51,544 nucleotides of DNA, from assembly GCA_028280815.1 (NCBI GenBank), contig JANQLC010000033.1, positions 1-51,544 of the forward strand. The letters run 5' to 3'. The DNA is from Flavobacteriales bacterium (GTDB lineage: Bacteria; Bacteroidota; Bacteroidia; Flavobacteriales; JANQLC01). The translations under genes and the position numbers were made by a program. A model generated the notes under the pieces. That model did not search any database and was not told the DNA's origin. It worked only from the letters and a program-made list of their open reading frames with translations. Of this stretch, positions 10,299-50,147 are shown piece after piece; positions within the stretch are counted from its first letter, which is position 1, and each line of letters opens with the position of its first letter.

Positions 10299-11324
10299 TC
10301 ATTTCATCAAGGATTTGTATTTTTCCAAATTTTTAAGCGCGATACCGGTTCCCCTGACCACCGCACGCAGTGGGTCTTCTGCAATGTATACCGGCAGGTC
10401 TGTGCGCGCCGATATGCGCTTATCCAAACCCCGCAATATGGCACCGCCGCCAGCCATATAAATTCCGGTGTTGTAGATATCTGCTGCCAATTCCGGTGGG
10501 GTTTGGGAAAGGGCTTCCATGATGGCTTCTTCGATTCTCAGTATAGAAGAGTCCAAGGCCTGTGCGACTTCTCTGTGTGAGATGACGATTTGTTTGGGCT
10601 TTCCGGTAACCGAATCCCGGCCTTGAACCGCTACATCTTCAGGGGGTGTATCCAAATCTGCAATCGCAGCGCCCACAGCTATTTTTATATTTTCAGCCGT
10701 CCGCTCCCCAATGTATAGGTTGTGTCCGGTTCGAAGGTAATACGTGATATCATCGGTAAAGATGTCACCGGCTACCTTAATCGATTTATCGCGGACGATA
10801 CCCCCGAGTGCGATGATGGCGATTTCCGAAGTACCTCCTCCGATGTCGACAATCATATTTCCCTTGGGTTGGGATATATCGATTCCAATGCCGATAGCCG
10901 CAGCCATGGGTTCGTGGATGAGATAGACCTCTTTGGCGTTCATGTTGTAAGCCGAGTCCCTTACCGCTCGCTCTTCTACCTCTGTAATCCCGGAGGGAAT
11001 GCAGATCACCATGCGAAGCGAGGAGGTAAATAGGGATCGCCTGATGCCGGGAACCCGTTTGATGAATTCCTTAATCATGTACTCCGAAGCCTTGAAATCA
11101 GCGATGACACCGTCTTTCAAGGGTCGGATGGTCTTGATGTCATCGTGGGTCTTGCCCTGCATCTGCTTGGCGGCTTCCCCAACGGCGATATATTTCTTCG
11201 AAGAGCGCTTCTGTGCCACTATAGAAGGGCCCTCGATAACTATTTTGTTGTCGTGTATGATGAGCGTATTAGCCGTGCCCAAATCAATAGCCACGTCTTG
11301 CACCATGAAATCAAATAGACCCAT
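10299..11324 (-). CDS. mreB: Actin-like rod shape protein MreB
   Basis: A 341-residue actin-fold ATPase. Phosphate-binding loops are plain: DLGTANTLI near the N-terminus, VDIGGGTSEIAII in the middle and MAGGGAILRGLDKRI toward the C-terminus. It starts MGLFDFMVQDVAIDLG, a usual MreB beginning. It directs lateral wall synthesis and heads the operon; a -7 box lies about 32 bases upstream. Confidence 0.97.
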   Translation of the reverse strand: MGLFDFMVQDVAIDLGTANTLIIHDNKIVIEGPSIVAQKRSSKKYIAVGEAAKQMQGKTHDDIKTIRPLKDGVIADFKASEYMIKEFIKRVPGIRRSLFTSSLRMVICIPSGITEVEERAVRDSAYNMNAKEVYLIHEPMAAAIGIGIDISQPKGNMIVDIGGGTSEIAIIALGGIVRDKSIKVAGDIFTDDITYYLRTGHNLYIGERTAENIKIAVGAAIADLDTPPEDVAVQGRDSVTGKPKQIVISHREVAQALDSSILRIEEAIMEALSQTPPELAADIYNTGIYMAGGGAILRGLDKRISARTDLPVYIAEDPLRAVVRGTGIALKNLEKYKSLMK

Positions 11325-11355
11325 CGAAGGTATCGCTGTATGCCATCCGGCTTTG

Positions 11356-11363
11356 CAAATCTA
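11356..11363 (-). promoter_or_regulatory. Candidate promoter of the mre operon
   Basis: On the - strand the sequence reads TAGATTTG, an exact match to TAnnTTTG, 32 bases before the mreB start. A TTTG lies 15 bases further upstream, shorter than the usual -33 to -7 spacing, so only the -7 element is supported. Confidence 0.45.
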
Positions 11364-11549
11364 ATGAATTGTGGGCAACAAATCGGGAAAGACCCGTGAT
11401 CCATAAGCATGTGGCGAAGCCGTCAGACGGCTCTCAATTCTACGCCAGCAAACAAAGGCGGGGTGCACTTTTAACCGGGTAGAGGTGGAAATCCAGACTG
11501 TTCTAAGCGGGAAGCCGCATGGCGATCGGGGTGAAAACAAGACGAAGAC

Positions 11550-13670
11550 TCAACGCGTTACACCCAGCTTCTCACCCGACAACTCATCGGAGACCCAGTC
11601 GTTTAAAACGTTTACCCCTTCCTCGACATAGGCGTCTCTTTTAAGGGCCTTATACCAGGCTTCTCGGTCAGCCTTTAGCGTCGTATCGGCTTTCATCTCT
11701 TCCACTTCAGCGCTCGGATACACAAAGTGCAGTTCGTTGTCATAATTGTCCAAGGCCGCAAAGCGCTTGGCTTTGGCCGCTAGTGAATCCCTGTTCTCTT
11801 TAAATGCGCTTAAGTTTAAGGAAACCTCATCAAGGGTGTCCGCTCGTTTTTTGAGCCACCGAGCATAGGCATCGGCGAGGGCAAAAAATTTGCTCTCTGC
11901 TACTCGCTTGTAGCTTTTCGCTTTTATCGCGTTTAAATCGACATGTGTGTCCTGAACGCTGTAATCCACAGGCTTGATGCCATCCCAAGGCATCGCATTG
12001 TCTTGGTCTTTTTCACCTACCTTCATGTAGGCGTATGGGGTGGGTAGTCCTATGTCTGGGATGACGCCTTTGAGCTGTGTGGCGCCGCCGTCAATGCGGT
12101 AAAATTTAGACGTGGTCAGCTTTAGGTATCCGAATGGTTTCAGGTCGTTTAAGCGCGGGCTTGCAAAGCGGTCTAAATCCAATAGGTTTTGTACGGTTCC
12201 CTTCCCAAAGGTGTGGTGGCTGCCTACGATAAGCGCGCGTTTGTAATCTTGCAAGGCTGCGGCGACTATTTCCGAAGCCGAGGCGGAAAGCTCGTTGACG
12301 AGTACGACCAAAGGACCGTCATAGACGACATCCGCGTCTCGGTCGCGCAATACGGATACTTTTCCGCCTCTTTCCCTCACCTGTACAATCGGCCCCTGGG
12401 CGATAAACAAGCCGGCCGTTTTGACGGCTAACGCCAAAGCGCCGCCGCCATTGTCTCGCAAGTCGAGTACGATTCCTCGCACCCCCTCTGCTTTGAGGGA
12501 TTCGAGTGCCGCTCTCACATCGTCCGCACTATTTCTGCCGTTGGAGCCGTTTACGTCGAAGTAAAAGCTCGGTAAGCGAATCAAGCCGTACCGCTGCCCA
12601 TTTCGCTCGATGACAGCGCTTTTGGCAAAGGTTTCTCGCAGCTGAACCACACCCCTTACAATGGGGATGACTTTCTCCATCCCATTTACCCTCCTAACGG
12701 TTAGCTTAACCGTGGTACCCGCCTTCCCCTTTATGAGCGCTATGACATCATCGATGTTCATACCTACGATGTCAACCGCCTCCCCATCACCCTGTGCCAC
12801 TTTGATAATTTTATCCTTCGCCTCTAAATCGCCTTGCCGGTAGCTGGGGCTTCCGGGTATGATCTCCACCACTGTCACGTAACCATCCCGCTTTTGTAAA
12901 CGTGCGCCAATCCCTTCAAACTGACCGCTTAAAGCCATATCAAATACTTCTCTATCGCGGGGGGCGAGGTAGTCGGTGTGGGGATCAAAGCCCGCTGCAA
13001 AATCATCGAGAAATTTAGACATCCAATAGGATTCATCCTTTTCATCGAGGCGCTCGTACAACCAATTGCAGTGCTTTAGCGTTTCTTCACGGCCTTTCCT
13101 TTCCCAATCGGCCACCGATTTGACGCCATAGCTGGGGTCCGCCTCCGCTTCTTGTCGTTCGGCGACATAAGAGACCACAGACAGTTTTAAACGCCTTCGC
13201 CACAGCTCTTTTAAACCGCGTTCCCCTGTAGCAGGCAGTACCTTATCCCAATTGTCGATAGGCGCGGTTTCATCTCGGGTTAAATCAAAGGGCTCAGAGA
13301 GGATTTCTCGGGTAAACGCATGCGTATTGCTCAGTTCTCGTTTAAAGATTTGAATGCTCTTTTTAAAAAAACTCAAATCACCGCTTTTGATTTGATCATC
13401 CAACTCATCCCGATATGGCAAAAGCGCGTTCAGGTCTGCTCGGGTGAAGTATCTCTTGAAATTATCCAATCGTTTGATATACCTATCGTATAAATCTTCT
13501 GAAAATGAATCGTTTAAATCCTTAGGCTGATAATGGCCATGGCTCAAAACCAAGCTCGTCAGTTTCAATGTTACCCTGTCTTTGTCCTCGTCAGCCGTGT
13601 AAAAACTGGCTAGCACACTGGAAAAGAGCAGTATGAAGACAAGTGCTTTTATATTTTTCAGAGCCTTCAT
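11550..13670 (-). CDS. prc: Tail-specific (C-terminal processing) protease, S41
   Basis: A 706-residue periplasmic serine protease of the Prc/Tsp family. ATG at 13670 is preferred over 13688 because it begins the signal peptide (MKALKNIKALVFILLFSSVLA). Order: N-terminal helical domain, PDZ domain at about 245-340 (SGQFEGIGARLQKRDGYV...), S41 catalytic core with VLDLRDNGGGALALAV, the serine in NELSASASEIVAAALQDY and the lysine in HHTFGKGTVQ, then a long C-terminal domain. Length and motifs match the E. coli Prc-size family rather than the shorter CtpA type. It trims or degrades periplasmic proteins, including cell-wall enzymes. It is monocistronic and divergent from lpxB. Confidence 0.93.
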   Translation of the reverse strand: MKALKNIKALVFILLFSSVLASFYTADEDKDRVTLKLTSLVLSHGHYQPKDLNDSFSEDLYDRYIKRLDNFKRYFTRADLNALLPYRDELDDQIKSGDLSFFKKSIQIFKRELSNTHAFTREILSEPFDLTRDETAPIDNWDKVLPATGERGLKELWRRRLKLSVVSYVAERQEAEADPSYGVKSVADWERKGREETLKHCNWLYERLDEKDESYWMSKFLDDFAAGFDPHTDYLAPRDREVFDMALSGQFEGIGARLQKRDGYVTVVEIIPGSPSYRQGDLEAKDKIIKVAQGDGEAVDIVGMNIDDVIALIKGKAGTTVKLTVRRVNGMEKVIPIVRGVVQLRETFAKSAVIERNGQRYGLIRLPSFYFDVNGSNGRNSADDVRAALESLKAEGVRGIVLDLRDNGGGALALAVKTAGLFIAQGPIVQVRERGGKVSVLRDRDADVVYDGPLVVLVNELSASASEIVAAALQDYKRALIVGSHHTFGKGTVQNLLDLDRFASPRLNDLKPFGYLKLTTSKFYRIDGGATQLKGVIPDIGLPTPYAYMKVGEKDQDNAMPWDGIKPVDYSVQDTHVDLNAIKAKSYKRVAESKFFALADAYARWLKKRADTLDEVSLNLSAFKENRDSLAAKAKRFAALDNYDNELHFVYPSAEVEEMKADTTLKADREAWYKALKRDAYVEEGVNVLNDWVSDELSGEKLGVTR

Positions 13671-37576: not shown

Positions 37577-37750
37577 TTATCTAAGGTAATAGGCCAGGAC
37601 ACTAAATAAGATGGATCGGCCTTCTATCTTTATGAAAATCAGCGATGACAATACGAGCCCAATGGTCGCTAGGATCCAGAGCAAGCCGTAGCGCACCAAT
37701 GCAAACCGCTTCTTATCCAATTCCTCTTGCAAGTCGTCTGCCATAGCCAT
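37577..37750 (-). CDS. Small membrane protein next to the exporter
   Basis: A 57-residue protein: a charged cytoplasmic start (MADDLQEELDKKRF), then one or two hydrophobic helices (YGLLWILATIGLVLSSLIFI and SILFSVLAYYL). It starts 3 bases after the exporter stop, so it is co-transcribed. Past its stop the neighbouring frame continues with protein-like sequence (HLEAGPGGQLAERRNEM to VVDLKVNF, stop at 37455-37457), which suggests a roughly 97-residue protein cut by a frameshift. The usual HlyD adaptor is absent here. Function unknown. Confidence 0.55.
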   Translation of the reverse strand: MAMADDLQEELDKKRFALVRYGLLWILATIGLVLSSLIFIKIEGRSILFSVLAYYLR

Positions 37751-37753
37751 TCT

Positions 37754-39958
37754 TTACACGCCCAGTTCCAATTGGTTTTTCACCAGACTGAAGTAGTCCG
37801 CTTGGTTTTGCACCAATTGTTGGTGGTTGCCGATTTCGACCAGCTGCCCCCCTTTCAGTACGGCGATTTGATCGGCGTTTTTAACCGTGCTCAAGCGGTG
37901 TGCGACGATCAAGACGGTCTTGCCCCGAAAGAAGCCCTGTAAGTTCTCGTGAATAACGCTTTCATTTTCCGCATCTAAGGCACTGGTCGCCTCGTCAAAA
38001 AATATGTAGTCCGGGTCTTTGTAAACCGCTCGGGCGATTAGGATCCGCTGCTTTTGTCCGCCCGAAATGCCGTTGCCCGATGCGCCTATTTTGGTCTTTA
38101 GTTTCAGTGGGAGGGACTCGACGAAATCCCGTATGTTGGCCATCCGAAGGGCGCGCTCGAGTTTTTCGCCATCGATGGCCGCTTCGCCCGTTGCGATATT
38201 TCGTTCGATGGTATCGGAAAAGATGTAGCCATCCTGCATCACCACACCGCAGTTGCGGCGCCAGCTGACGGGTGAGAGCGTTGCCCAATCGCAGCCGTTC
38301 AAGCGTATGCTACCCCGGACGGGTTCATAGAACTTGAGCAACAATTTCATCAGTGTGGTCTTGCCGCTTCCACTGGCTCCCACGATGGCGGTGGTCTTTC
38401 CCGCCGGTATGAATAGCGTTATGTCCTGAAGCACGAAAGGGGATTTCGGCCCTTCGTATTGAAAGCCGAGTGCGCTGATTTGAATGCCCTTTTGGGCTTC
38501 GCGTCGGGTCGGGGATTCCAGTTGCGACAGGGCGAGCTGGTCTTCGCCTTCCTCTTCCGGCTGGTCTTGCACCTCGCTGAGCCGTTCCAAGCTCAACCGG
38601 GCGTCTTGCAGGGAGCGGAAAAAGCCGACCAGCTGGTTGACCGGTGCGTTCATCTGACCGATGATATAGGAGACCGCCAGCATGGCACCCAGGGTGATGT
38701 GGCCCAAAATCACTTCGCGGGCTGCGATAAAGCTGACCAAGATATTTTTGAATTGGTTGATAAAATTAAAGCCGATGAGTTGAAACTGGTCTAACCTGAG
38801 AATCCGAAGGTTTACGTGAAACAGTTTGATCTGGATGCCCGCCCATTGCGCGCACTTGTAATCCTCAAATTGGTTTAGCTTGATCTCCTGCACCCCGTTG
38901 ATCAACTCGTAGATGGATTCCTGGTTTTCACTTCGGCGCTGAAAGCGGTAGTAGTCCAATACCTTTCGTCTCTTGAGAAAGACGACAGACCAAAATATGG
39001 CGATGGCCGTGAGGCACACATAACTCAGGACGATTTTATAACCGTAGTAAAAGAGCACGAAGAAGAAGACGGAAAAATTGATCAGCGAAAACAGGGTGGT
39101 CAAACTCTGCGAAGTCAAAAAGGATTCGATGCGCTCGTGATCTCGTATGCGTTGGTTGAAGTCTCCGATGCGTTTGGTGTCGAAAAACCGAATGGGCAGC
39201 CTCAGAATTTTTCGCAGGAAATCCGAAATGATGGTAATGCTGATGCGCGTGCCCATGTAGAGCATCACCCAGTTTCGGACGATTTCGATGACGACGCTGC
39301 CGAGAAAGAGGAAGAGCTGAGCCAATAAGATTGAGAATACGATAGGCAGGCTTTTGTGCGCCACCCCCTTGTCGATTAAGGCTTGGGTGAGAAAGGGAAA
39401 GATCAGGGTAAACAAACTCCCTGCGAGCAAGCCGAGAAAGAGCTGCAACACCTCCCTTTTGTAGGGCTTTAAAAAACCGAGTAAATAGGCGAGATCGAGT
39501 CTCCGCCTCGGCGGGACATCCCGTTTATAGAATCGCGGGGTGGGTTCCAGAAAGAGAGCTACCCCCCTGTCGTTCTGGGACAGCCAGGACTTTGTAAAAT
39601 TCGCCTCGTCCAAAGTGATCAGCCCGTGCCCGGGATCGGCGATCCGGAAGCGGTAGCCCTTGGCGAGTCGCTTTTTTTTTATCGCGTACAAGACGACAAA
39701 GTGGTTTTGATTCCAGTGTAAAATGCAGGGCAAGGGGCCTTCTTCAACAAGGGTTTTAACCGTTAATTTGGCGGCAAAGGTGTCCATTCCGATCTGCTTC
39801 GCCGCCTGACCGATGCCCGATAGGCTCACCCCTTCGCGGCTGATAAAGCAATGATCGCGCAGGTATCGCAAGGGGTAATTTTTGCCATAGGCCTGGGCCA
39901 GCATTCGCAAGCAGGCGGGTCCGCAATCCATCTGATCGTGCTGTGGGGTAAACTTCAT
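37754..39958 (-). CDS. C39-peptidase ABC exporter (PCAT) for GG-leader peptides
   Basis: A 734-residue bacteriocin-type exporter. The N-terminal C39 peptidase has Cys12 (MDCGPACL), His86 (NHFVVL) and Asp108 (DPGHG), all catalytic residues. Six helices form the membrane domain at about 155-440. The ATPase domain has GASGSGKTT, ISGGQKQR, IFFDEATSALD and VAHRLS. It removes leaders after GG and exports the core. All motifs are intact, unlike the two radical SAM genes nearby. It follows the JmjC gene on the same strand, with a 1.08-kb repeat region between and its own -7 box. It is the natural processor of the polyQ precursor and possibly of the two KGG precursors. Confidence 0.95.
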   Translation of the reverse strand: MKFTPQHDQMDCGPACLRMLAQAYGKNYPLRYLRDHCFISREGVSLSGIGQAAKQIGMDTFAAKLTVKTLVEEGPLPCILHWNQNHFVVLYAIKKKRLAKGYRFRIADPGHGLITLDEANFTKSWLSQNDRGVALFLEPTPRFYKRDVPPRRRLDLAYLLGFLKPYKREVLQLFLGLLAGSLFTLIFPFLTQALIDKGVAHKSLPIVFSILLAQLFLFLGSVVIEIVRNWVMLYMGTRISITIISDFLRKILRLPIRFFDTKRIGDFNQRIRDHERIESFLTSQSLTTLFSLINFSVFFFVLFYYGYKIVLSYVCLTAIAIFWSVVFLKRRKVLDYYRFQRRSENQESIYELINGVQEIKLNQFEDYKCAQWAGIQIKLFHVNLRILRLDQFQLIGFNFINQFKNILVSFIAAREVILGHITLGAMLAVSYIIGQMNAPVNQLVGFFRSLQDARLSLERLSEVQDQPEEEGEDQLALSQLESPTRREAQKGIQISALGFQYEGPKSPFVLQDITLFIPAGKTTAIVGASGSGKTTLMKLLLKFYEPVRGSIRLNGCDWATLSPVSWRRNCGVVMQDGYIFSDTIERNIATGEAAIDGEKLERALRMANIRDFVESLPLKLKTKIGASGNGISGGQKQRILIARAVYKDPDYIFFDEATSALDAENESVIHENLQGFFRGKTVLIVAHRLSTVKNADQIAVLKGGQLVEIGNHQQLVQNQADYFSLVKNQLELGV

Positions 39959-39985
39959 CGATACAGGCGCGTATAGGCTTTAGCC

Positions 39986-39993
39986 CAAAATTA
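39986..39993 (-). promoter_or_regulatory. Candidate promoter of the PCAT exporter
   Basis: The - strand reads TAATTTTG, an exact TAnnTTTG match, 27 bases before the exporter ATG. A TTTG lies 26 bases further up, longer than usual. Confidence 0.4.
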
Positions 39994-40129
39994 AGCAATT
40001 GTAACATTTCAGGGCATTCCAAAAGGGTATGGGGCGGATCAGAGCCGCACTGTTTTTCGCCCTTGGTCCGAATGGGTTCGAAAATAAGAGGCCTAGCTTA
40101 TCGTCCCTGTGTAACGCTCCCATTGCAAA

Positions 40130-40480
40130 AGCCCAATGGGGGCCTTTAAAAAAATCGAATTGAAGCAGTCTGAAAAGAGCGGCTTATCTTTTTGTCGCTT
40201 TTATGAGCGATTGAAAGGCCGGGGTTGTTCCATCTTCTGCTTGGCAGTTGAAAAGGGACTGGGTTTTTGCCGCTGTTGCGTTGCTGGTTTGGCTGGGTTT
40301 TGGAACGCGTTGTCTTCCCTTGTACTTCATCGGGTTTTTTACATAGGCCTTTTCTGCGATTGGCATAGGCGGGTTTGGGGTTGCTCGACTCGGACTGCCC
40401 CCGTCGAGTCCCTTGCATAGGGCTTCTGTGGTTGGCATAGGTGGATTTTGAGCCTATGGCTTTGTGCGACTGCGTTTATT
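40130..40480. repeat. Degenerate repeat, inverse of the TTTTCAAA-type
   Basis: Units read in the opposite direction to 26640-27960: GCAGTCTGAAAAGAGCGG, CGATTGAAAGGCCGG, GGCAGTTGAAAAGGGACTGG. They grade into G/T-rich words after about 40380. The interval 39994-40130 holds nothing identifiable. Confidence 0.55.
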
Positions 40481-40790
40481 GGGTTGCCCGATTGATTCAG
40501 TGGGTTGCTGCGCGAGTCTGTCACTTGGGTTGGATTGATTGGATTGACTGCTCGGATTGGATTGCTTTGATCAACTCAGTGGATTGACTTATTACTGTGA
40601 TGGATTGGATGGATACATGAGATGTGTTTGGGTGGGTTTCAGATGATTGGGCTTGGATGGGAGGCTGTCGTTGCGCCGCGTTTGCACAAGGGGTGCGTTG
40701 GGTGTTGCCCGCGTCGGTTTTTGGCTCATCGGTCTTTCCTGTAATGGGTTTGATAAAATGAGAGATCCGTCTTTTGTTGTTTTCACGCAT
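40480..40790. repeat. G/T-rich (GGATTG)-like tract
   Basis: Degenerate GGATTG / GGGTTG words fill the + strand, the complement of the A/C-rich tract at 1-310. Open frames here are composition artefacts. From 40791 to 41035 no gene is seen. Confidence 0.6.
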
Positions 40791-41035
40791 GACAGCCTAA
40801 AAATTATCACTTTTGTCAACGGCTGAGGCTTTAAAAAGGGTTTAGCCTTTTGTGTTTATCGCTGTGGGTGGTAGTCTAAGGAATGGGGGCTGCCCTTCAC
40901 TTTTGCGCTGGTCTATGTGTGGGGATGTAAAAGCGGACGCTTCTACCTATGTGGTCAACCATCTATCGGCTTATGATAAGTCAGTTAGCTGCCTATCAGT
41001 CCTTAAGTATTGCAAAACCTATGCTGGGAGGTGTT

Positions 41036-42325
41036 CTATTTTTCTACAACCGCAATGCCGTGGTTGACATAGAGCAAATTTAAAATATACAAACCGATGG
41101 ATTTATCCCAATCGGGATCGAGCGATGAAAGCGCGTCTTTTACGCTTGTGATAGCACCTGAGTTGATCCGATCGATCAGCGATTTGATACACGCGTGTCG
41201 GTCTAAGACGATTTTCGTCCCCCGGGCGTAGAGGTGTATCTTTTTGCCATTTAGATTGTCATGATAGTATATTTTGTAGGGCGATGCGCACTGAATGCGG
41301 GTTTGGGGCTTGAAATCAAATTCTTTCTCCCTCGGGAAGGGCCGGGTCCAAAACCCCCCATTGCTGTACAACGCATATCGAAATTCCCTATAGCTCTCTC
41401 TGAGCAACTGCTTAAAACTGAGATTTTCAAATTCTTCGGGCAGTTTAAATAATTCCAAAGATAATTCAAAACTGCGCAGGTCTCCCACCCCGCATGGGTC
41501 CGTTTCTAAGATCTCGTCACTTTCTTCAAAATATTGATCGAGTATCACTTTTAAAGGTCTCTTGGCCAACCGGCCCTTCACAGCGTTGTGAAACCACAGG
41601 GTCAATCCCATAGAGAGCTCATCCGAACGGCCGACGTGGTACACCCCTTGGGGCATAAAGTACAGATCGCCTTCACCAAAGGTGTGTTCATCGGCACAAG
41701 CCAAGTAGGACTCGATATGGGTATTGTTCATCCTTTCAAGAGGTTGGGTCATATCCTCATACACCGCCGTATCCCAGGTGTACATAGTTTTACCCCCTTT
41801 TCCCAAGTGAAAGTGTATGACGTTTTCACCCCTTTCGTCCCGATGAATGCCCAGGGGCGTCCATCCATAGTTACTTATAAAAACGGTAAAGTTCATACCC
41901 AAGTAAGGCATCCCCTTTTGTTCTAAAAGGGGGGCGATTTTATCGGAGACCCAAGCGGATAGATCGGGGTTAAACTTTTCCGCTCGATTGATAATCATAC
42001 CGAACTTTTTATCCCCAAAGCAGCGACTGGCCCAGTCTGCAACCGTTTCCTCTGCATGGGGAGATCGGTCGTATATCTGGGGCATCTCCTTATAGCCCAA
42101 CCGTTTTCCATCCAAATAGACCCGATATCCAAATTCATCAGTCCGCATACGGGACAATACGGATACGATATGGAGCAACTGCTTTCGCATCCAAGCGGTC
42201 TCCTCGGGGCTTAAGCAGTTTTTAAAAACCGCGGTTTGGGTACAGTTATCGGTTCGAGATAGAAAATCGTCCCACCAGCTGGCTTGAAAGGGCTTCCGCT
42301 TATCCTTTGCATTTGCTGTTATCAC
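41036..42325 (-). CDS. JmjC-type Fe(II)/2-oxoglutarate oxygenase, predicted RiPP tailoring enzyme
   Basis: A 429-residue cupin/JmjC protein. The metal site is His161-x-Asp163 (GIHRDERGE) with distal His230 (PQGVYHVGR); the strand VIHFHLGKGGKTMYTW lies between. The C-terminal 60 residues (LDRHACIKSLIDRINSG to LLYVNHGIAV) look like the winged-helix tail of ribosomal-oxygenase-like JmjC proteins. It starts with GTG overlapping the stop of the small exported protein (GTGA), so the two are translationally coupled. Location two genes after the polyQ precursor makes hydroxylation of that peptide the likely job; this is inference. Residue targeted is unknown. Confidence 0.8.
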   Translation of the reverse strand: MITANAKDKRKPFQASWWDDFLSRTDNCTQTAVFKNCLSPEETAWMRKQLLHIVSVLSRMRTDEFGYRVYLDGKRLGYKEMPQIYDRSPHAEETVADWASRCFGDKKFGMIINRAEKFNPDLSAWVSDKIAPLLEQKGMPYLGMNFTVFISNYGWTPLGIHRDERGENVIHFHLGKGGKTMYTWDTAVYEDMTQPLERMNNTHIESYLACADEHTFGEGDLYFMPQGVYHVGRSDELSMGLTLWFHNAVKGRLAKRPLKVILDQYFEESDEILETDPCGVGDLRSFELSLELFKLPEEFENLSFKQLLRESYREFRYALYSNGGFWTRPFPREKEFDFKPQTRIQCASPYKIYYHDNLNGKKIHLYARGTKIVLDRHACIKSLIDRINSGAITSVKDALSSLDPDWDKSIGLYILNLLYVNHGIAVVEK

Positions 42326-42723
42326 AATTGTATGATTTGTCTGGTGATGGCTTTTAGTTTGTATAATTCCCGAGTCACTCCTTTAAAAGCCTTATAGGAT
42401 ATCTTTAACTCCTCCGCTCGCAACTCGATTTTAAGTTCAAATTTCCCCTTGGTTTCAGTTTTATCGATCCGCCATACGACATCTCTTTTAGAGCTGGGAA
42501 ATGCCTCGAACTCCCTTTTTACAATGCGCTGGATTTTAGGATAATATTCTTTTCCAAAGGTGCACGAAAAGGCATATGAATTACCTGTATCAGCCTCCGA
42601 GTAAGCGATTCCAGATTTTGTAACCCTGGCTCCCACCCGAGGTGGGACGGGCGGTGTTGGAACCTGACTTTTTAAACCATCCATAACAAATGCAATTAAT
42701 ATTAGAAATAATAACTTTTTCAT
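42322..42723 (-). CDS. Small exported protein of the polyQ cassette
   Basis: A 133-residue protein with a clear signal peptide (MKKLLFLILIAFVMDGLKSQ) and a Pro-rich junction (VPTPPVPPRVG). The mature part is rich in alternating Lys/Glu beta-strand or helix pattern (KGKFELKIELRAEELKISY). No family is recognised. It sits between the attenuator hairpin and the JmjC gene and is coupled to the latter. It could be an immunity protein, a periplasmic chaperone or a maturation partner. Confidence 0.8.
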   Translation of the reverse strand: MKKLLFLILIAFVMDGLKSQVPTPPVPPRVGARVTKSGIAYSEADTGNSYAFSCTFGKEYYPKIQRIVKREFEAFPSSKRDVVWRIDKTETKGKFELKIELRAEELKISYKAFKGVTRELYKLKAITRQIIQL

Positions 42724-42742: not shown

Positions 42743-42786
42743 TGTAAAAATCATAAGCGGAACCTATAAATAATTCCGCTTATGAT
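42743..42786 (-). terminator. Attenuator hairpin after the polyQ precursor
   Basis: A perfect 13-bp stem (ATCATAAGCGGAA pairing with TTCCGCTTATGAT, arms 42774-42786 and 42750-42762) with an 11-base loop is followed on the - strand by TTTTTAC. It begins 15 bases after the precursor stop and ends 20 bases before the next gene. This would let the precursor mRNA greatly outnumber the enzyme mRNA. Confidence 0.8.
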
Positions 42787-42800
42787 ACATCAAAAAAAGA

Positions 42801-42989
42801 TCAACGCATTAAACAAACAACACCTTCTCCACGAGCATCGGGGTGGGATTGCTGTTGCTGCTGCTGCTGTTGCTGTTGCTGTTGATAAGCGCAAGCAGTG
42901 CCACCTCTTAGCTTGTCTTGCTCCAGCGGTGTAAGCACTTTGGTGCCCAAAAAGGCGGCTGGATCTAACATCTTCTCTTTCTTTTCCAT
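42801..42989 (-). CDS. Double-glycine RiPP precursor with a polyglutamine core
   Basis: A 62-residue peptide. The leader (1-30) ends KVLTPLEQDKLRGG, fitting the PCAT pattern with Leu at -12, Glu at -8, Leu at -4 and GG. The predicted 32-residue core is TACAY, twelve Gln (36-47), then SHPDARGEGVVCLMR; Cys33 and Cys59 flank the Gln tract. The Gln codons mix 5 CAA and 7 CAG in irregular order (42849-42884), which argues against a fresh triplet expansion. It is 79 bases after the receptor gene and is followed by a strong hairpin. Exporter, oxygenase and receptor share the strand. The core chemistry and biological role are unknown. Confidence 0.88.
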   Translation of the reverse strand: MEKKEKMLDPAAFLGTKVLTPLEQDKLRGGTACAYQQQQQQQQQQQQSHPDARGEGVVCLMR

Positions 42990-43068
42990 GATTGAAAGAT
43001 TTAAAGATTAACTCCTACTATATTCAGGGTTTTCGGATTCCCCCTATCGAATGCGCATCTCGATATTT

Positions 43069-45465
43069 TTAATTCGCTCTATTTCGCAAATCTGTATTGC
43101 TTTTCTCTATATGGACTTTCTCAGCCTTTGTACCTGCAGAAAAGGGATAGACCACAGCGAACGAAACCGCTCGCTTGTAACCGTTTCTAAGCTGTGTGGT
43201 GACGACTTGGCTTTGCACGTTTTTAAACCGATACCTCAGGTTGTCAAAGGGGTCGACGAGCTTTAAATAAAAGGACAAACCCTTGTCGAGTTGTTTGGAC
43301 AGGTTGAAATAAAAAGCGTAATTCTCACCGGTTTGAAATTGACCATAGGTTTCGGGGCCATTGTATTCAAATGCCGCTTCGGACTTAAAGCCATGGGGCC
43401 ATGTAAAGCCCAGTTCAATCCGGCCCTGAAGTGTTCCCTTTGCGCTGTGAATGTTATCCACCCGATCCGCAAACTTCGATCGGTAGTACTTTCCATACCA
43501 GGACGCTCGGGCAGATAAGTCCAATCGCTCGCTTATCGCTTTATTTCCAGAAACCGACAGGCCGTAAGCGTCGGCGTGGTCGATATTTCGCCACTGGTAC
43601 TGCAGTTTTTTTGCCCCTTGTTTTTTTAAAATTTCTCTCGGCTCGCCTCGGGTTCGGTCGTAAAAGAGCAGGGCGTTTAATCCAGCCGCATCGTAGCTCA
43701 GCTCCAGTGCATGCGTATAGGAAGGGTCCAATCCGGGATTGCCGATGGCCGATGAGGATTCAGTGAGATAAAAAGCGGTCGGGTTAAAGCTGTCATAGCT
43801 CGGGCGTTCGATGCGCCTCGAGTAGGAAAGGCTTACACTGCGTTTGTCGACCAGGCTCTGGCTGAGGAACAGGCTCGGGAAAAAATCGGTATAGTCCTTT
43901 TGCAAGCTATAGCTCCGAGCCGGGATTTCCCCTTTGCCCTTTGTGTGCTCAACCCGGAGTCCGATTTGGGTGGAAATACCCCAGTTAAAAAGGCTATCGA
44001 TGGAGAGGGAAGCATAAGCGGCGAAGATTTGCTCTCGATAATTAAATGCATTGGTCAGGCTGTCGTCCTGCACAAAAATGCCCTTTAGTCGGTTTTCAAA
44101 AAGGCTGCTATTTTGGTTATCGACCGAGCTGTATTTTACACCGGCCTTGAAGGTGTACGGTTTAAAGGGCTTTTTGTAATCGAGCTGGCCGGATAGAATT
44201 TTGTCATGCGTCGGTGAGTAGTTCCGCTTCTCATTGGAACTGGTGGGGATGTGATGCGCGTCGAAATAGAAATTTTTATACGTATCCCACTGCCGGTGGT
44301 CGGATTGATAGCAATCGAAGATAGCCCGTAAATCCTGGCCTGCAGAATCCAACTTCAATTTGTAATTGAATCCCAGGTTGTAGTAATGATAATCCACTCT
44401 AATGAGGTAATCACCGGATGAAAAACGCTGTTGCACATCTTTTATGGACATCGCTCTGGTATCGCCTTGATCGACCGTAAAAGCGGTGTATCCAAAATCC
44501 AATCCGAATTCGTTAGCCGGGTTGCAGGCGTAGTACAGGCTGTTGGAACTGTGAACATAGTTGCTTTGGGCATCCATCTTCCGCACATAGTGATACCTCG
44601 TAAACGGATCGAGCAGGGTTTCCGTTCGATCCTCTTTACCCGGCTCGTGCCTTTGATTTAGACTGATAAAGCTGCGGAATGATAGTTTCTCGTTCCACTT
44701 TGCATTTAAGTTTACCGAAGATTGATGCGATATAAACCGGGCTGCGGTTAGATCGGTATGAACCGTGCTCTGCAAACCCCTTTTTCGGGCTTTTGTCGTT
44801 GTGATATTGACGATCCCCCCAGCTCCTGCTGCCTCGTATTCGGAAGCGGGATTGCTGATTATTTCAATGGATGCGATCTCTTCGTTGGACAGGGAAGTCA
44901 AAAAATCATGTAAATCGGCCGCACTCATATGGGGGTCCTTGCCATCGATTCGGATGCGACTGGGTTTGCCCTTTATGGAAATGGCCCCCGTATGGGGGCT
45001 CACCGTTACAAGGGGGGCATAGCGCAGGATTTCCAAAGTGTTTTTCCCCGCTAAGAGCGGATTCTCCTTTACGTCTAAGATAAGCCGGTCGGCTTGCCTT
45101 TTAATCAGCCTTTTGCGGGCTGTTATCACTACTTCCTGCATCTGCATATCGGTATTGACCTGCAACAGGCCCAAATCGAGGGATTGGGCGAGGCTCAGCA
45201 TCTTCTCAAATAGCGTTTTGCCCAATAGGCTCGCCTGGAGTGTATAAGAACCATCGGGCAAGTTGAGGCTAAAGGCGCCGGATTCGTCTGTGATCGTACC
45301 CGCGACGATGGAATCGTTCACAGCAGCCGTTATGCTCAGGTATGCAACCGGCTTTTTGGCCTTATCTATAACCCTTCCGTAAACGATGTTTTGTGCCCCA
45401 CCTTGCTGGCAGAACAGGCCGACTAAGGCGAGAGATAGGCTTGTCTTTACCTGTCGCTTATACAT
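43069..45465 (-). CDS. TonB-type outer-membrane receptor/barrel of the polyQ cassette
   Basis: A 798-residue outer-membrane protein. Signal peptide to GGAQ, then a carboxypeptidase-regulatory-like domain at about 27-105 (VYGRVIDKAKKPVAYLSI, ITDESGAFSLNLPDGSYTLQ), a plug-like domain at about 120-230 (RIRIDGKDPHMS, IEIISNPASEYEAAGAGGIVNI), and a large barrel of the OMP_b-brl type ending near the C-terminus. It is full length and intact. It is first in the cassette with a -7 box 21 bases upstream. It may move the mature peptide across the outer membrane or take up a cognate ligand. Confidence 0.88.
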   Translation of the reverse strand: MYKRQVKTSLSLALVGLFCQQGGAQNIVYGRVIDKAKKPVAYLSITAAVNDSIVAGTITDESGAFSLNLPDGSYTLQASLLGKTLFEKMLSLAQSLDLGLLQVNTDMQMQEVVITARKRLIKRQADRLILDVKENPLLAGKNTLEILRYAPLVTVSPHTGAISIKGKPSRIRIDGKDPHMSAADLHDFLTSLSNEEIASIEIISNPASEYEAAGAGGIVNITTTKARKRGLQSTVHTDLTAARFISHQSSVNLNAKWNEKLSFRSFISLNQRHEPGKEDRTETLLDPFTRYHYVRKMDAQSNYVHSSNSLYYACNPANEFGLDFGYTAFTVDQGDTRAMSIKDVQQRFSSGDYLIRVDYHYYNLGFNYKLKLDSAGQDLRAIFDCYQSDHRQWDTYKNFYFDAHHIPTSSNEKRNYSPTHDKILSGQLDYKKPFKPYTFKAGVKYSSVDNQNSSLFENRLKGIFVQDDSLTNAFNYREQIFAAYASLSIDSLFNWGISTQIGLRVEHTKGKGEIPARSYSLQKDYTDFFPSLFLSQSLVDKRSVSLSYSRRIERPSYDSFNPTAFYLTESSSAIGNPGLDPSYTHALELSYDAAGLNALLFYDRTRGEPREILKKQGAKKLQYQWRNIDHADAYGLSVSGNKAISERLDLSARASWYGKYYRSKFADRVDNIHSAKGTLQGRIELGFTWPHGFKSEAAFEYNGPETYGQFQTGENYAFYFNLSKQLDKGLSFYLKLVDPFDNLRYRFKNVQSQVVTTQLRNGYKRAVSFAVVYPFSAGTKAEKVHIEKSNTDLRNRAN

Positions 45466-46480: not shown

Positions 46481-46641
46481 CGCTTTGCCGATCGGCTTGG
46501 ACGCACTTAGCGTACTACATAGAAGGAGATCAATACAAAGCGTTAAAATGCCTCAAACCATGTCAAAATCTAAGGAGGATTTGTTTTTGCTGATTTATTT
46601 TGCTTTACTTTATATACACTATCAAAAAGTGGGTGTGGTCG

Positions 46642-48405
46642 ATGAATCCGACCCAGATGAGTTTGCTGCTCTTTTTCACCGGTCTTCAGGCGCTATCAGC
46701 CCAAGACAAGGCGAGCGTGATCCAGGGAAGGGTCACAGACGAAAAAGGGATTCCGATCGCCTTTGCAGATGTGATCCTCCAGAATGCGAGCGGCAAAGCG
46801 ATTACGGGGGCGGTTTCGGATACCTCAGGCGTATTTCGATTGAATTGTGACCAAGGGGGAAGATTCATTTTGGTGGTTCGGTTTATGGGGTATCGAACGT
46901 ATCGAAAGCGCATCAACCTTGACAAAGGCGCCTCCATAGATATGGGAACGATTGTCCTAAGCGCTGATGAGAAGAGATTGGCGAAGGTAAAAGTGATAAA
47001 AAACAAACCCTTAATCGAGCAACGGGCAGACCGTTTGGTATTCCACGTGGAGAATTCGGTGGCTGCCGCTGGCGGAGATGCCTTGGATGCCTTGAGCATA
47101 ACCCCGCGGATACAGCTGCAGAACGGAAAGCTCTCCATGATTGGGGAAAGAGATGGCCATCGACTTGGATTACCTCAGCCATGATCGTACCGACCGTTTG
47201 AACAACCGCAATTATAAGCGTATCGGAGATAATCCCTCTGAGCAGCTTTCAGAGGACCGAACGAATTCGGCTCAAGACATCGATATCTCATCTGCTAAAA
47301 TCGATGTTACCCGGCCTACTGCATTTTCCAAAATCGATTTCGGTGCCAAGGCTTCCTTTACAAGGATAAACAGCGATTGGGACTACAGCAAAAAAGCAGC
47401 TCATTCCAGATCGGATTTCGATTCGTTTGCCTATCGAGAAAATACCCAAGCTCTTTATCTGAGTTTGACCCAATCCGCGGGAAAGTGGCGATTAAAGGCG
47501 GGCATACGCTTGGAGGCCAACCAAACGCAAGGAAAAATCCAAGTCCTATGCGCAAACCGATAAAAACGATTACACCCAATTATTCCCCAGTGCTTATGTG
47601 AGCCGTCGCCTCGGTGATCACCACGTCTTTTCGTTCAACTATGGCAAACGCATAAACCGGCCGCCCTATCGGCTGTTTAAATCCCTTCCGGCGCTATGCC
47701 ACCGCTTACCCTTATACCGAAGGAAACCCCGCTTTGCAACCCTATTTCACCCACAATATCGAACTGACGAATCTGTTTAAGCACAAACTGAATACGGGCA
47801 TGTATTTCACGGCCACAACGGATCAGTACGCCAGCATTACGCTGGCGGATGAAAAGACGAAACTGAGGCGTACGCTGTGGCGGGAAAAGCTAAGCCGTGA
47901 ACACAGCCTTGGAATCTACCAATCCCTGACAGTCCAGAAAATAGGGCCGCTGAGTGGTTATTTGGAATACGATTTAAGCTATGATAAAGTGAAATCCAGG
48001 GAGCCGGATTTAGTCCCCGGGAATGAAAGCCTGAATTTTTTTGCATCGATTAAGAATCAAATATCCATCGGCGAAAGGCTAAAAGGTGAAGTCGATTTCT
48101 AGTACGAGGCGCCCGGCAGCTACGGGCTTTACGATATGTCCGAGCACTATAGTCTGACTGCGGGGTGTAAAGCTGATTTTTTAAACAAACGCCTGCGAGC
48201 GAGCCTCCTTTTCAGCGACATCTTGAGGACCCATAAATTCAAGCTGAAAGGTTTTGTAGCAGGTATTTTTCGGGTAGAAGACTATTATTGCGACTGTCAA
48301 GCCCTGCGGTTTTCCCTGCGTTATCGTTTCGGGAATAAAAAGATTCGAAGCCGATTAAAAGACTTCGATAATGAAGCCGAGCGAAATAGAATCGAAGCGA
48401 AATAA
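46642..48405 (+). pseudogene. Decayed TonB-type outer-membrane receptor
   Basis: A second receptor related in architecture to 43069-45465. The intact start (ATG 46642, signal to LSAQ, CarboxypepD_reg-like VIQGRVTDEKGIPIAFADV) runs to about 47140. The frame then jumps to barrel sequence (DLDYLSHDRTDRLNNRN) without the rest of the plug and early barrel, so a deletion has occurred. Further shifts follow near 47555 and 47680, and an in-frame TAG at 48100-48102 interrupts GEVDF / YEAPGSYGLYDM. The end (FSLRYRFGNKKI) is recognisable. At least one deletion, two frameshifts and one nonsense codon are visible. Confidence 0.85.
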
Positions 48406-48717: not shown

Positions 48718-48801
48718 TGTATATAAAATCACATGGCTTGGGTGGGTTGACTTGAATATCCCGCTTTCTGGTCGGTGATAAAACCAAAAACCAAGGCGAT
48801 T

Positions 48802-50147
48802 ATGTATAAACTATCGCGTTACCTCGTCATTTCGGATTACATCTCCAGCAACGCCCGACTGCTCTACGCCACCCGAGCGGGAAAATACGTAGTCATCAAA
48901 GACAGCGTCCTCGATTTGTTACAGGCTGGCCGCTTCGACGAGATCGATTTAAAAACCTTAATCCCCCTTTTCGAGAGAGGAGTGATCGTCCCCGAGGATG
49001 CAGATGAATTTGAAGATATATTGAGGCACAATAAAAACGCGATAAGAGATAGCCAAGCATTGGGACTGATCATACAACCCACTGCCAACTGCCAGCTCGG
49101 TTGTCATTATTGCGGGCAAGTGCACGCCAAGCGAAATATGTCCGGTCGAGTAGCGGAAGCCACGGTAGCGCGAATCACCTCCAAATTAGCACTAAAAAAT
49201 ACAAGACACTGAATATCAAACGGTACGGCGGCGAACCCCTATTGGGGTATAGGCAGATAATCGAGATGAGTCAAAAACTCATAAACTACTGCGTGGATAA
49301 CGAGATCGCTTATTTCTCCGATATGATTACAAATGGGCTAAGCCTCAAGCCGGTTATCTTCAAACGGATTGTCGAAGAAGCCAGGGTAAGGCATTTTCAA
49401 ATAACCCTGGACGGTACAAGCATGTACGACAAGCGGAGAATCACAAAAAAAGATGCGCACACCTTCGATATCATCTTAGACAACATACTGAATATTGTCG
49501 ATACAGCGGACTACGCGGAAAGCAATTGTGCCGTTACCGCACGGATTAATGTGGACAGCGCCAATGAACACGAGGTATGTGAGCTGATCGATTTGTTGTC
49601 GGAACATGAGCTGCAGCATAAAAATGTACATGTGGATTTCGCCCCTTTGGTCAATTGGGGAGACCTCACCGCTGCCGATGAAGACGGTTTGGATGAGGCG
49701 GATTTTGCCGCTAAGGAGATCGATTGGATGTTATATGCTTTGAAAAGCGGCTTTAAGCGCGATATCACTTTACCGTCGAGAACCCCGGCCCCGTGCATGG
49801 TCGTCAATCCGGAATCCGAAGTATACGATGCCAACGGAGGTATTTATCCCTGCTATGAATTCCCCTATACCCCCAAATACGAGGAGGGGAAATATAAAAT
49901 CGGCAATCTGTTAAACGAAGTTCAGGTCAGCAACGAAAATGCCGTGACGCGGAATTGGTATTCCGATATAAAGACCGATATATCCGACTGCAAGAATTGC
50001 AACTTGTTTCCGGTTTGCGGCGGTGGACGCCCGAAAAAGTGGTACAACGGCGAAAGGAGATGCCCTTCATTCAAGCAAAACATAGCCGATCGATTGGCAT
50101 TGGATTATTTGATGCAAACCGAAAAACTGGCGTTCCATGCGGGATGA
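48802..50147 (+). pseudogene. Radical SAM/SPASM peptide maturase, frameshifted at an A run
   Basis: Paralogue of the gene at 34552. ATG 48802 opens MYKLSRYLVISDYISSN and runs through the cluster motif CQLGCHYCGQ, then stops at 49210-49212. Another frame supplies KKYKTLNIKRYGGEPLLGY to 50147. The switch is at the six-A run near 49194-49199; one more A would restore the frame. RYGGEP replaces the usual WYGGEP, and the SPASM word CGGGRP has Arg where the paralogue has Cys (CGGGCP). These substitutions argue for decay, while the A run leaves open slippage or phase variation. It overlaps the next gene by 11 bases. Confidence 0.75.

Follow-up and report, generated by a model that had tools for sequence, protein, structure and literature searches.

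A family of double-glycine peptides with polyglutamine and other repetitive cores, encoded beside a JmjC-type oxygenase and a C39 exporter

The window, a stretch of 51,544 nucleotides from a contig of a Flavobacteriales bacterium (JANQLC010000033.1), carries on its reverse strand a small gene (42801–42989) with an ATG start that encodes a precursor peptide of 62 amino acids, with a leader at residues 1–30 and a core at residues 31–62. The leader, MEKKEKMLDPAAFLGTKVLTPLEQDKLRGG, ends in LRGG, its double glycine lying at positions 29–30. The core reads TACAY, twelve glutamines and then SHPDARGEGVVCLMR, with two cysteines, Cys33 and Cys59, on either side of the glutamine tract. With CAA written as a and CAG as g, the glutamine codons run a g a g a g g g g a g a. 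A preliminary description of this DNA had recognized a gene of this kind, with a Gln12 core between two cysteines and mixed codons, as well as a C39 exporter nearby on the same strand; we find both. Unmodified and linear, the core has a computed monoisotopic mass of 3671.674 Da. The precursor is the sole match within its own 1.59-Mb assembly. Just past its stop codon, an inverted repeat, CATAAGCGGAA / TTCCGCTTATG, followed by a run of T (42752–42784, reverse strand), resembles a terminator by eye. On the other side lies a DUF805b RNA (RF02914, cis-regulatory) at 43012–43046 on the same strand, which scores 41.1 bits against a gathering cut-off of 35.6 and ends 22 nt before the ATG.

The neighbouring genes are on the same strand. 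Upstream, 43069–45465 encodes a 798-aa outer-membrane β-barrel protein of the OMP_b-brl_3 type with a CarboxypepD_reg domain (PF14905, 259 bits). Downstream of the precursor are SP133 (42322–42723), a protein of 133 aa whose N-terminus looks like a signal peptide by eye, and a 429-aa JmjC-type Fe(II)/2-oxoglutarate oxygenase with a winged-helix, RRE-like C-terminal domain (41036–42325). The 734-aa peptidase-C39 ABC exporter (37754–39958) matches PF03412, PF00664 and PF00005 above their cut-offs, the first at 110.5 bits against 22, and is followed by a 57-aa protein (37577–37750) that, by eye, has a single transmembrane-like segment. The 1077-bp spacer between the JmjC and C39 genes (39959–41035) is particular to the window in a comparison with the loci of Altibacter sp. 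HG106 (L009) and Flavobacteriaceae UBA4166 (L010), where fewer than 40 bp separate the two genes; stretches of about 50 bp from it recur at two other places in the same genome. Because the C39 gene lies 1.08 kb from the JmjC gene in the window, their co-transcription is not assured there.

Relatives were sought through the JmjC-like protein, by a profile search of genome contigs with a two-row alignment, which returned 55 loci encoding such proteins. In all, 11 polyQ precursors of one leader family, with tracts from Gln7 to Gln18, were found in 10 genomes, the window included. Altibacter sp. HG106 has a short double-glycine (GG)-leader ORF with a Q17 core beside its JmjC gene, and Kordia algicida OT-1 has two, with Q12 and Q11. 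Precursors with Q10, Q13 and Q7 adjoin the JmjC genes of Aquimarina aggregata, Chryseobacterium sp. c4a and Riemerella columbina respectively. The UBA4166 precursor, which was found by tblastn owing to an assembly gap within its glutamine tract, has ten glutamine codons before the gap and more after it. A later search added a Q13 precursor in a genus-mate of Chryseobacterium c4a (G971), and there is a Q15 precursor in another genome of c4a's family (G1143). Plasmid pQD2021 of Bergeyella porcorum (L124) carries a Q18 precursor together with a JmjC gene; this JmjC gene is in pieces in the plasmid record, so that the Q18 reading frame and count are less sure. The leaders are of the type PAxFLGxKVL(S/T)PxEQDKLRGG, the ends of the cores are short and variable, and F13, L14, G29 and G30 are invariant across 16 leaders. 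We conclude that the small gene is real, and that it belongs to a family of bacterial export peptides with a cargo of 7–18 glutamines. The preliminary description had named the lack of any homologous precursor, and loss of frame, as grounds for abandoning its reading; homologous polyQ precursors exist in other genomes, and none of the polyQ tracts found is out of frame with its leader.

Long glutamine tracts are otherwise scarce at these loci. The window and the 55 loci (1.11 Mb together) contain 6682 ORFs of 30–120 aa; seven of these have Gln7 or longer, and all seven are precursors of the leader family. When ORFs of any length are counted, two more appear: the gapped UBA4166 gene and a 209-aa ORF in L015. 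The two cysteines of the window peptide, in contrast, are confined to it: the other polyQ cores that are complete, nine in number and of eight different sequences, have no cysteine (the assembly gap interrupts the UBA4166 core). The disulfide loop proposed in the preliminary description is thus not a family trait. A Cys33–Cys59 ring around the tract is suggested by the position of the two residues in the window, but given their absence elsewhere we consider it distinctly improbable, and at best such a loop would be special to the window.

The tract appears to be kept as protein. Two Chryseobacterium loci from different species (L013 and L110) are 91.9% identical in DNA over 9.7 kb and encode identical precursors. 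Of the 62 precursor codons (stop included), six differ, all silently and none replacing a residue, and four of these changes fall among the 13 glutamine codons of the tract, whose length and residues are the same. Over 423 codons of the neighbouring JmjC gene, by comparison, 86 changes are silent and 12 replace a residue, and four of its eight shared glutamine codons differ. The silent-only changes argue that it is the protein, not a DNA triplet, that is kept, as the preliminary description had surmised from the mixed codons of the window. We conclude that the polyQ peptide appears to be under selection in this pair, the one close pair found and the one on which the codon comparison rests.

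These results bear on the notion that the ORF is spurious or decaying and its tract a CAR microsatellite evolving neutrally. Tract length does vary, from 7 to 18 between genera and between 18 and 15 in the two Bergeyella-type precursors, and there are broken genes near the precursor in the window genome. Against this stand the homology of the leaders across families, the conserved position in the operon, and the mixture of CAA and CAG in all polyQ tracts. The silent-only Chryseobacterium pair refutes the notion for the family, although the window tract itself has no close relative. Taking the mixed codons, the silent-only changes and the confinement of Gln7+ ORFs to the leader family together, we rule out a microsatellite artefact, and see hardly any chance that neutral repeat growth explains the tract.

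The neighbouring genes were compared across these loci by tblastn. The full order of barrel, precursor, SP133, JmjC, C39 exporter and 57-aa protein is found in Altibacter and UBA4166, and four further loci (L011, L013, L014 and L024) keep part of it, with some genes moved. The C39 exporters of Altibacter and UBA4166 are 71% identical to that of the window and adjoin the JmjC gene. Homologues of the 57-aa protein occupy the same place (57.9% identity in L009 and 54.4% in L010), and other small transmembrane-like ORFs stand there in L011 and L024. A barrel homologue lies upstream of the precursor in L009, L010, L011, L013 and L024. SP133 has homologues of 26–31% identity at six polyQ loci. It has no Pfam match, and its fold model (pLDDT 69) gave nothing at E 0.001 in Foldseek; the weak matches, all with E above 0.1, include the type III secretion chaperones ExsC, SigE and VecA, and a chaperone role for SP133 would be only a guess. 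The arrangement that the preliminary description had proposed looking for, GG-leader and Q-rich ORFs next to JmjC and C39 genes, is therefore present, with the neighbours conserved together.

The exporter and the precursor go together more widely. At 23 of the 55 loci, a full-length C39 exporter stands no more than about 5 kb from the JmjC gene, and 21 of these 23 have a precursor of the leader family; as to the other two, L025 is truncated by the start of its contig, and the GG ORFs of L027 are not accepted by the leader model. At L016, precursors are present and the contig ends before any exporter. The leader model found no precursor at the remaining 31 loci, some of which (L029 and L038, for example) have single GG-like ORFs. 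The precursors thus have what is expected of a substrate of a peptidase-containing ABC transporter (PCAT): a leader that has hydrophobic positions ahead of a terminal Gly-Gly, and a C39 peptidase-ABC exporter in the same locus. They also have features expected of a ribosomally synthesized and post-translationally modified peptide (RiPP), namely a precursor divided into leader and core and a co-conserved gene for a candidate tailoring enzyme. The split radical-SAM gene of the window (48775–50147) was also considered for that part and set aside, as neither of its pieces was matched in the 55 JmjC loci (tblastn, E 0.01).

The candidate enzyme is the JmjC protein. It scores 17.6 bits against Pfam JmjC_2 (PF08007), below the cut-off of 22; among four relatives, one falls below the cut-off and three give no match. 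A PDB-sequence profile search with the JmjC alignment returned three matches, of which the best was limonene synthase (E 0.0011) and none a JmjC protein. The AlphaFold model, built with nine sequences, has a pLDDT of 85.7 and a pTM of 0.83, and its best Foldseek match is the YcfD-like arginyl hydroxylase of R. marinus (4csw, E 3.4e-15), with the histidyl hydroxylases NO66 and MINA53 following after the YcfD arginyl hydroxylases. In the structural alignments, the TM-score does not exceed about 0.5, the rmsd is 8 Å or more and the identity is 11–16%. We speak of a predicted ROX fold. ROX enzymes end in a winged helix, and residues 343–427 of the JmjC protein are modelled as strands followed by three helices. 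This order matches that of the RREs in the part of PMC12710340 that describes them, and it is on this order of secondary structure that we call the domain RRE-like; Pfam gave no RRE-like family for the C-terminal piece. The JmjC protein resembles YcfD, NO66 and MINA53 in its predicted fold, its HxD...H motif and its winged-helix-like C-terminal domain, but differs from them in its low identity and in being encoded with short GG-leader precursors.

The metal-binding triad HxD...H (H161, D163 and H230) is present in all 39 precursor-linked rows of the JmjC alignment, three partial copies of the window protein being left out. In contrast, the middle Asp is replaced by Glu in 20 of the 35 other rows, a set that also counts UBA4166 and the truncated L025, which properly belong to the linked rows. 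The preliminary description had suggested that the tract may be hydroxylated. The predicted fold and the intact metal motif back this suggestion, and hydroxylation itself is something that we continue to infer. The triad also bears on whether the polyQ peptide could be exported without modification of its tract, the JmjC protein acting instead on the flanks, on another substrate or as a leader-binding chaperone. Several precursors do have hydroxylatable His, Arg, Asp or Pro in their flanks. The polyQ flanks are unconserved, however, leaving the tract as the only feature that the cores have in common, and the triad is intact in every precursor-linked row. We regard this account as unlikely, although it is the strongest of those that we weigh against our own.

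The leader family extends beyond polyglutamine. A model of the leader, trained on 16 sequences, picks out precursors with other cores, including TVTVTVTVTVTVTVTT, KVKVKVKVKIK, VKVEKKKEKKKQ, VVVQQVRQQVVQQVQ, VGHHHDHD and CKCKCKCK. Related loci combine the same leader with simple cores of other kinds, for example (VT)n, (KV)n and K/E. Low complexity is the rule: 36 of 43 distinct cores, seven of the 43 being polyQ, have an entropy no higher than the 5th percentile of protein segments of matched length, and seven are above it. For the window core the value is 0.045. At two loci the precursors stand in tandem, with leaders that resemble one another and cores mostly rich in K/E: six at L026:8966–9983 (CKCKCKCK being one of the cores in L026) and five at L030:9102–9966. 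At L012, L015, L021, L033 and L112, a tandem pair of JmjC paralogues stands beside one precursor, and in the first four of these a C39 exporter lies downstream of the pair. Near distant JmjC relatives, small ORFs of GVRPDG-like repeats occur on a Nostoc carneum plasmid (L125:4711–4884) and a Streptomyces plasmid (L126:2285–2434), so that repetitive peptides accompany this type of enzyme there too.

In a 77-row tree of the JmjC proteins, the rows labelled polyQ group together (82/50, and 84% of 200 bootstrap trees), a level of support that we consider moderate. The label covers ten rows, three of which are partial copies of the window protein, leaving seven independent ones; the UBA4166 row falls inside the group unlabelled, and there are long branches elsewhere in the tree. 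The polyQ group adjoins a Chitinophaga group with HHHDHD cores, with 100/99 for both together. Precursor-linked rows without the polyQ label number 28; 26 of them are in the neighbouring clade and two, both from one genome (G1030), lie outside.

Repetitive cores of this kind might instead belong to a structural or adhesive peptide, in which polyQ, V/T and K/V cores form β-sheet fibres at the cell surface and hydroxylation tunes their solubility. Such a role would suit the low complexity of 36 of the 43 cores and the alternating (TV)n and (KV)n cores of related clades. Other related cores, however, are highly charged (K/E) or rich in His and Asp, and are no obvious β formers; we think a fibre improbable, somewhat more so than export of an unmodified peptide.

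We favour, with reasonable though far from full confidence, a RiPP-like family of GG peptides in which a leader-guided JmjC oxygenase hydroxylates the repetitive cores before C39 cleavage and export. For the window, the gene content suggests that the neighbouring oxygenase probably modifies the polyQ peptide, which the C39 pump probably cuts and exports. The winged-helix (RRE-like) domain of the JmjC protein would bind the leader, and its ROX-type centre (HxD...H, Fe(II) and 2-oxoglutarate) would hydroxylate side chains of the glutamine tract, probably at a number of positions. Cleavage behind the Gly-Gly by the C39 domain would accompany transport into the periplasm, and the outer-membrane barrel may have a part in the release or re-uptake of the peptide. 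Because related enzymes are paired with (VT)n, (KV)n, K/E, V/Q and HHHDHD cores, the repetitive core may be viewed as the repeated substrate of one iterative enzyme. The cores of the related clades share no single residue, and no common target residue can therefore be named.

A broader proposal, which we hold more tentatively and put at somewhat under an even chance as a whole, is that of a new RiPP class defined by its repetitive cores, in which the window peptide would be a bacterial polyQ exported with a programmed modification. Here a leader-guided ROX-type JmjC enzyme would iteratively hydroxylate homopolymer or dipeptide-repeat tracts, with poly(hydroxyglutamine) as one example of the secreted product; the cores would be poly-Gln in the window family, and Val-Thr, Lys-Val, Lys/Glu and His/Asp in the related clades.

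GG peptides exported by PCATs serve in communication and competition, as the part of PMC7018657 on these peptides describes. The polyQ loci share with them the double-glycine leader and the C39 exporter in the locus, but differ in the homopolymeric glutamine core, the dedicated JmjC oxygenase and the outer-membrane barrel partner. By likeness to other GG peptides, the product is most likely a secreted peptide that acts between cells. A parallel for the chemistry is biphenomycin biosynthesis, in which the JmjC protein BipG hydroxylates an ornithine in the core of a ribosomal precursor (PMC12707348), much as we propose here. The comparison rests on the description in the relevant passages of that paper, where BipG, in contrast to the polyQ system, acts on one ornithine of a cross-linked core and an MFS transporter, but no C39 exporter, is named. 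Fused JmjC-RRE proteins have been reported with bacterial relatives in RiPP-like contexts (PMC12710340) and, as described there, combine a JmjC domain (PF08007) with an RRE-like fold, as the window protein appears to do; unlike for the polyQ loci, the passages concerned name no precursor or core for them. The polyQ precursors are a candidate substrate family for such proteins.

The window precursor matches none of the families in NCBIfam release 20.0, and eight other precursors gave nothing above cut-off there. No polyQ RiPP was found among the best-ranked matches in the open-licence PMC literature, a search that does not establish absence from print. On these two grounds we file them as RiPP-like GG peptides whose cores are repetitive, a family that belongs to none of those named in the libraries searched. 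PolyQ tracts are known mainly from eukaryotic proteins, and long ones aggregate. Here, bacteria maintain a short polyQ peptide next to genes for an oxygenase and an exporter. Hydroxylation of the tract, if it occurs, would add a new chemistry to the RiPPs and might be a means by which nature keeps polyQ soluble. The named relatives Kordia algicida OT-1 and Aquimarina aggregata RZW4-3-2 make the system testable. The computed masses of their linear, unmodified cores are 3047.502 and 2009.999 Da for the former and 2286.147 Da for the latter.

The JmjC/polyQ system is rare and patchy. The JmjC gene was found in two of 395 genomes of the window's class, its own included (E 0.001). At E 1e-40, it was found in six of 397 genomes of Kordia's family and one of 11 of Kordia's genus, in 16 of 173 genomes of the genus of Chryseobacterium c4a, and in 10 of 66 of the genus of Aquimarina aggregata. 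Leader matches at E 0.01 occurred in 22 of 320 genomes of c4a's family; that in G844 (E 0.0066) falls in a long ORF and is probably due to chance, and that in G1114 has an internal stop. Bacteria with a polyQ peptide span at least three families, Flavobacteriaceae, Weeksellaceae and the window's own. The plasmid-borne precursor and JmjC gene of Bergeyella porcorum fit this patchy distribution.

The region upstream of the precursor is conserved for most polyQ precursors. A glutamine riboswitch was considered for this element and discarded when Rfam gave DUF805b instead. DUF805b scores above cut-off before six further polyQ precursors (L009, L010, L011 twice, L013 and L024) and before that of G971, and reaches 32.9 bits, below the cut-off, in G400. 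By eye, the innermost pair of its stem varies by genome, being G-C, C-G, T-A or A-T. It was not seen before the two Bergeyella-type precursors (by eye, and by Rfam scan for G1143), and seven loci with other cores, scanned whole, have no DUF805b at cut-off. Across 11 genomes, between 1 and 29 matches per genome were found before assorted genes, a count that includes weak matches and comes from scoring no more than 150 candidates in each. DUF805b is therefore not special to the polyQ family. DUF805b terms were not found in the open-licence PMC literature searched. A second DUF805b-like element of the window genome (L179, G000 C12:21158–21191) scores 24.6 bits, below cut-off, and lies about 50 nt before another GG-leader ORF at L008:6214–6450 (78 aa, MEKFELNKRV...DVKGGFTYL). 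Elsewhere, DUF805b precedes GG-like ORFs (L152 and L158) and unrelated genes. Its occurrence before GG-like ORFs in several genomes suggests that it may often mark small exported peptides, and the polyQ loci link the element to such peptides.

The window genome also contains broken genes of related kinds. At 46600–48405 of the window, a second barrel-type gene is split over several frames, as is a radical-SAM/SPASM maturase gene at 48775–50147, for which the best NCBIfam match, TIGR04463, is below cut-off; an ORF of 301 aa, with no family assigned, follows the two. This region may be a decaying second peptide cluster or the result of sequencing errors. Elsewhere in the same genome (L008:10842–11159 and 11119–13587, G000 C12), a remnant of a JmjC C-terminus stands beside what appear to be pieces of a broken outer-membrane barrel, which suggests that the window genome once had another such cluster.
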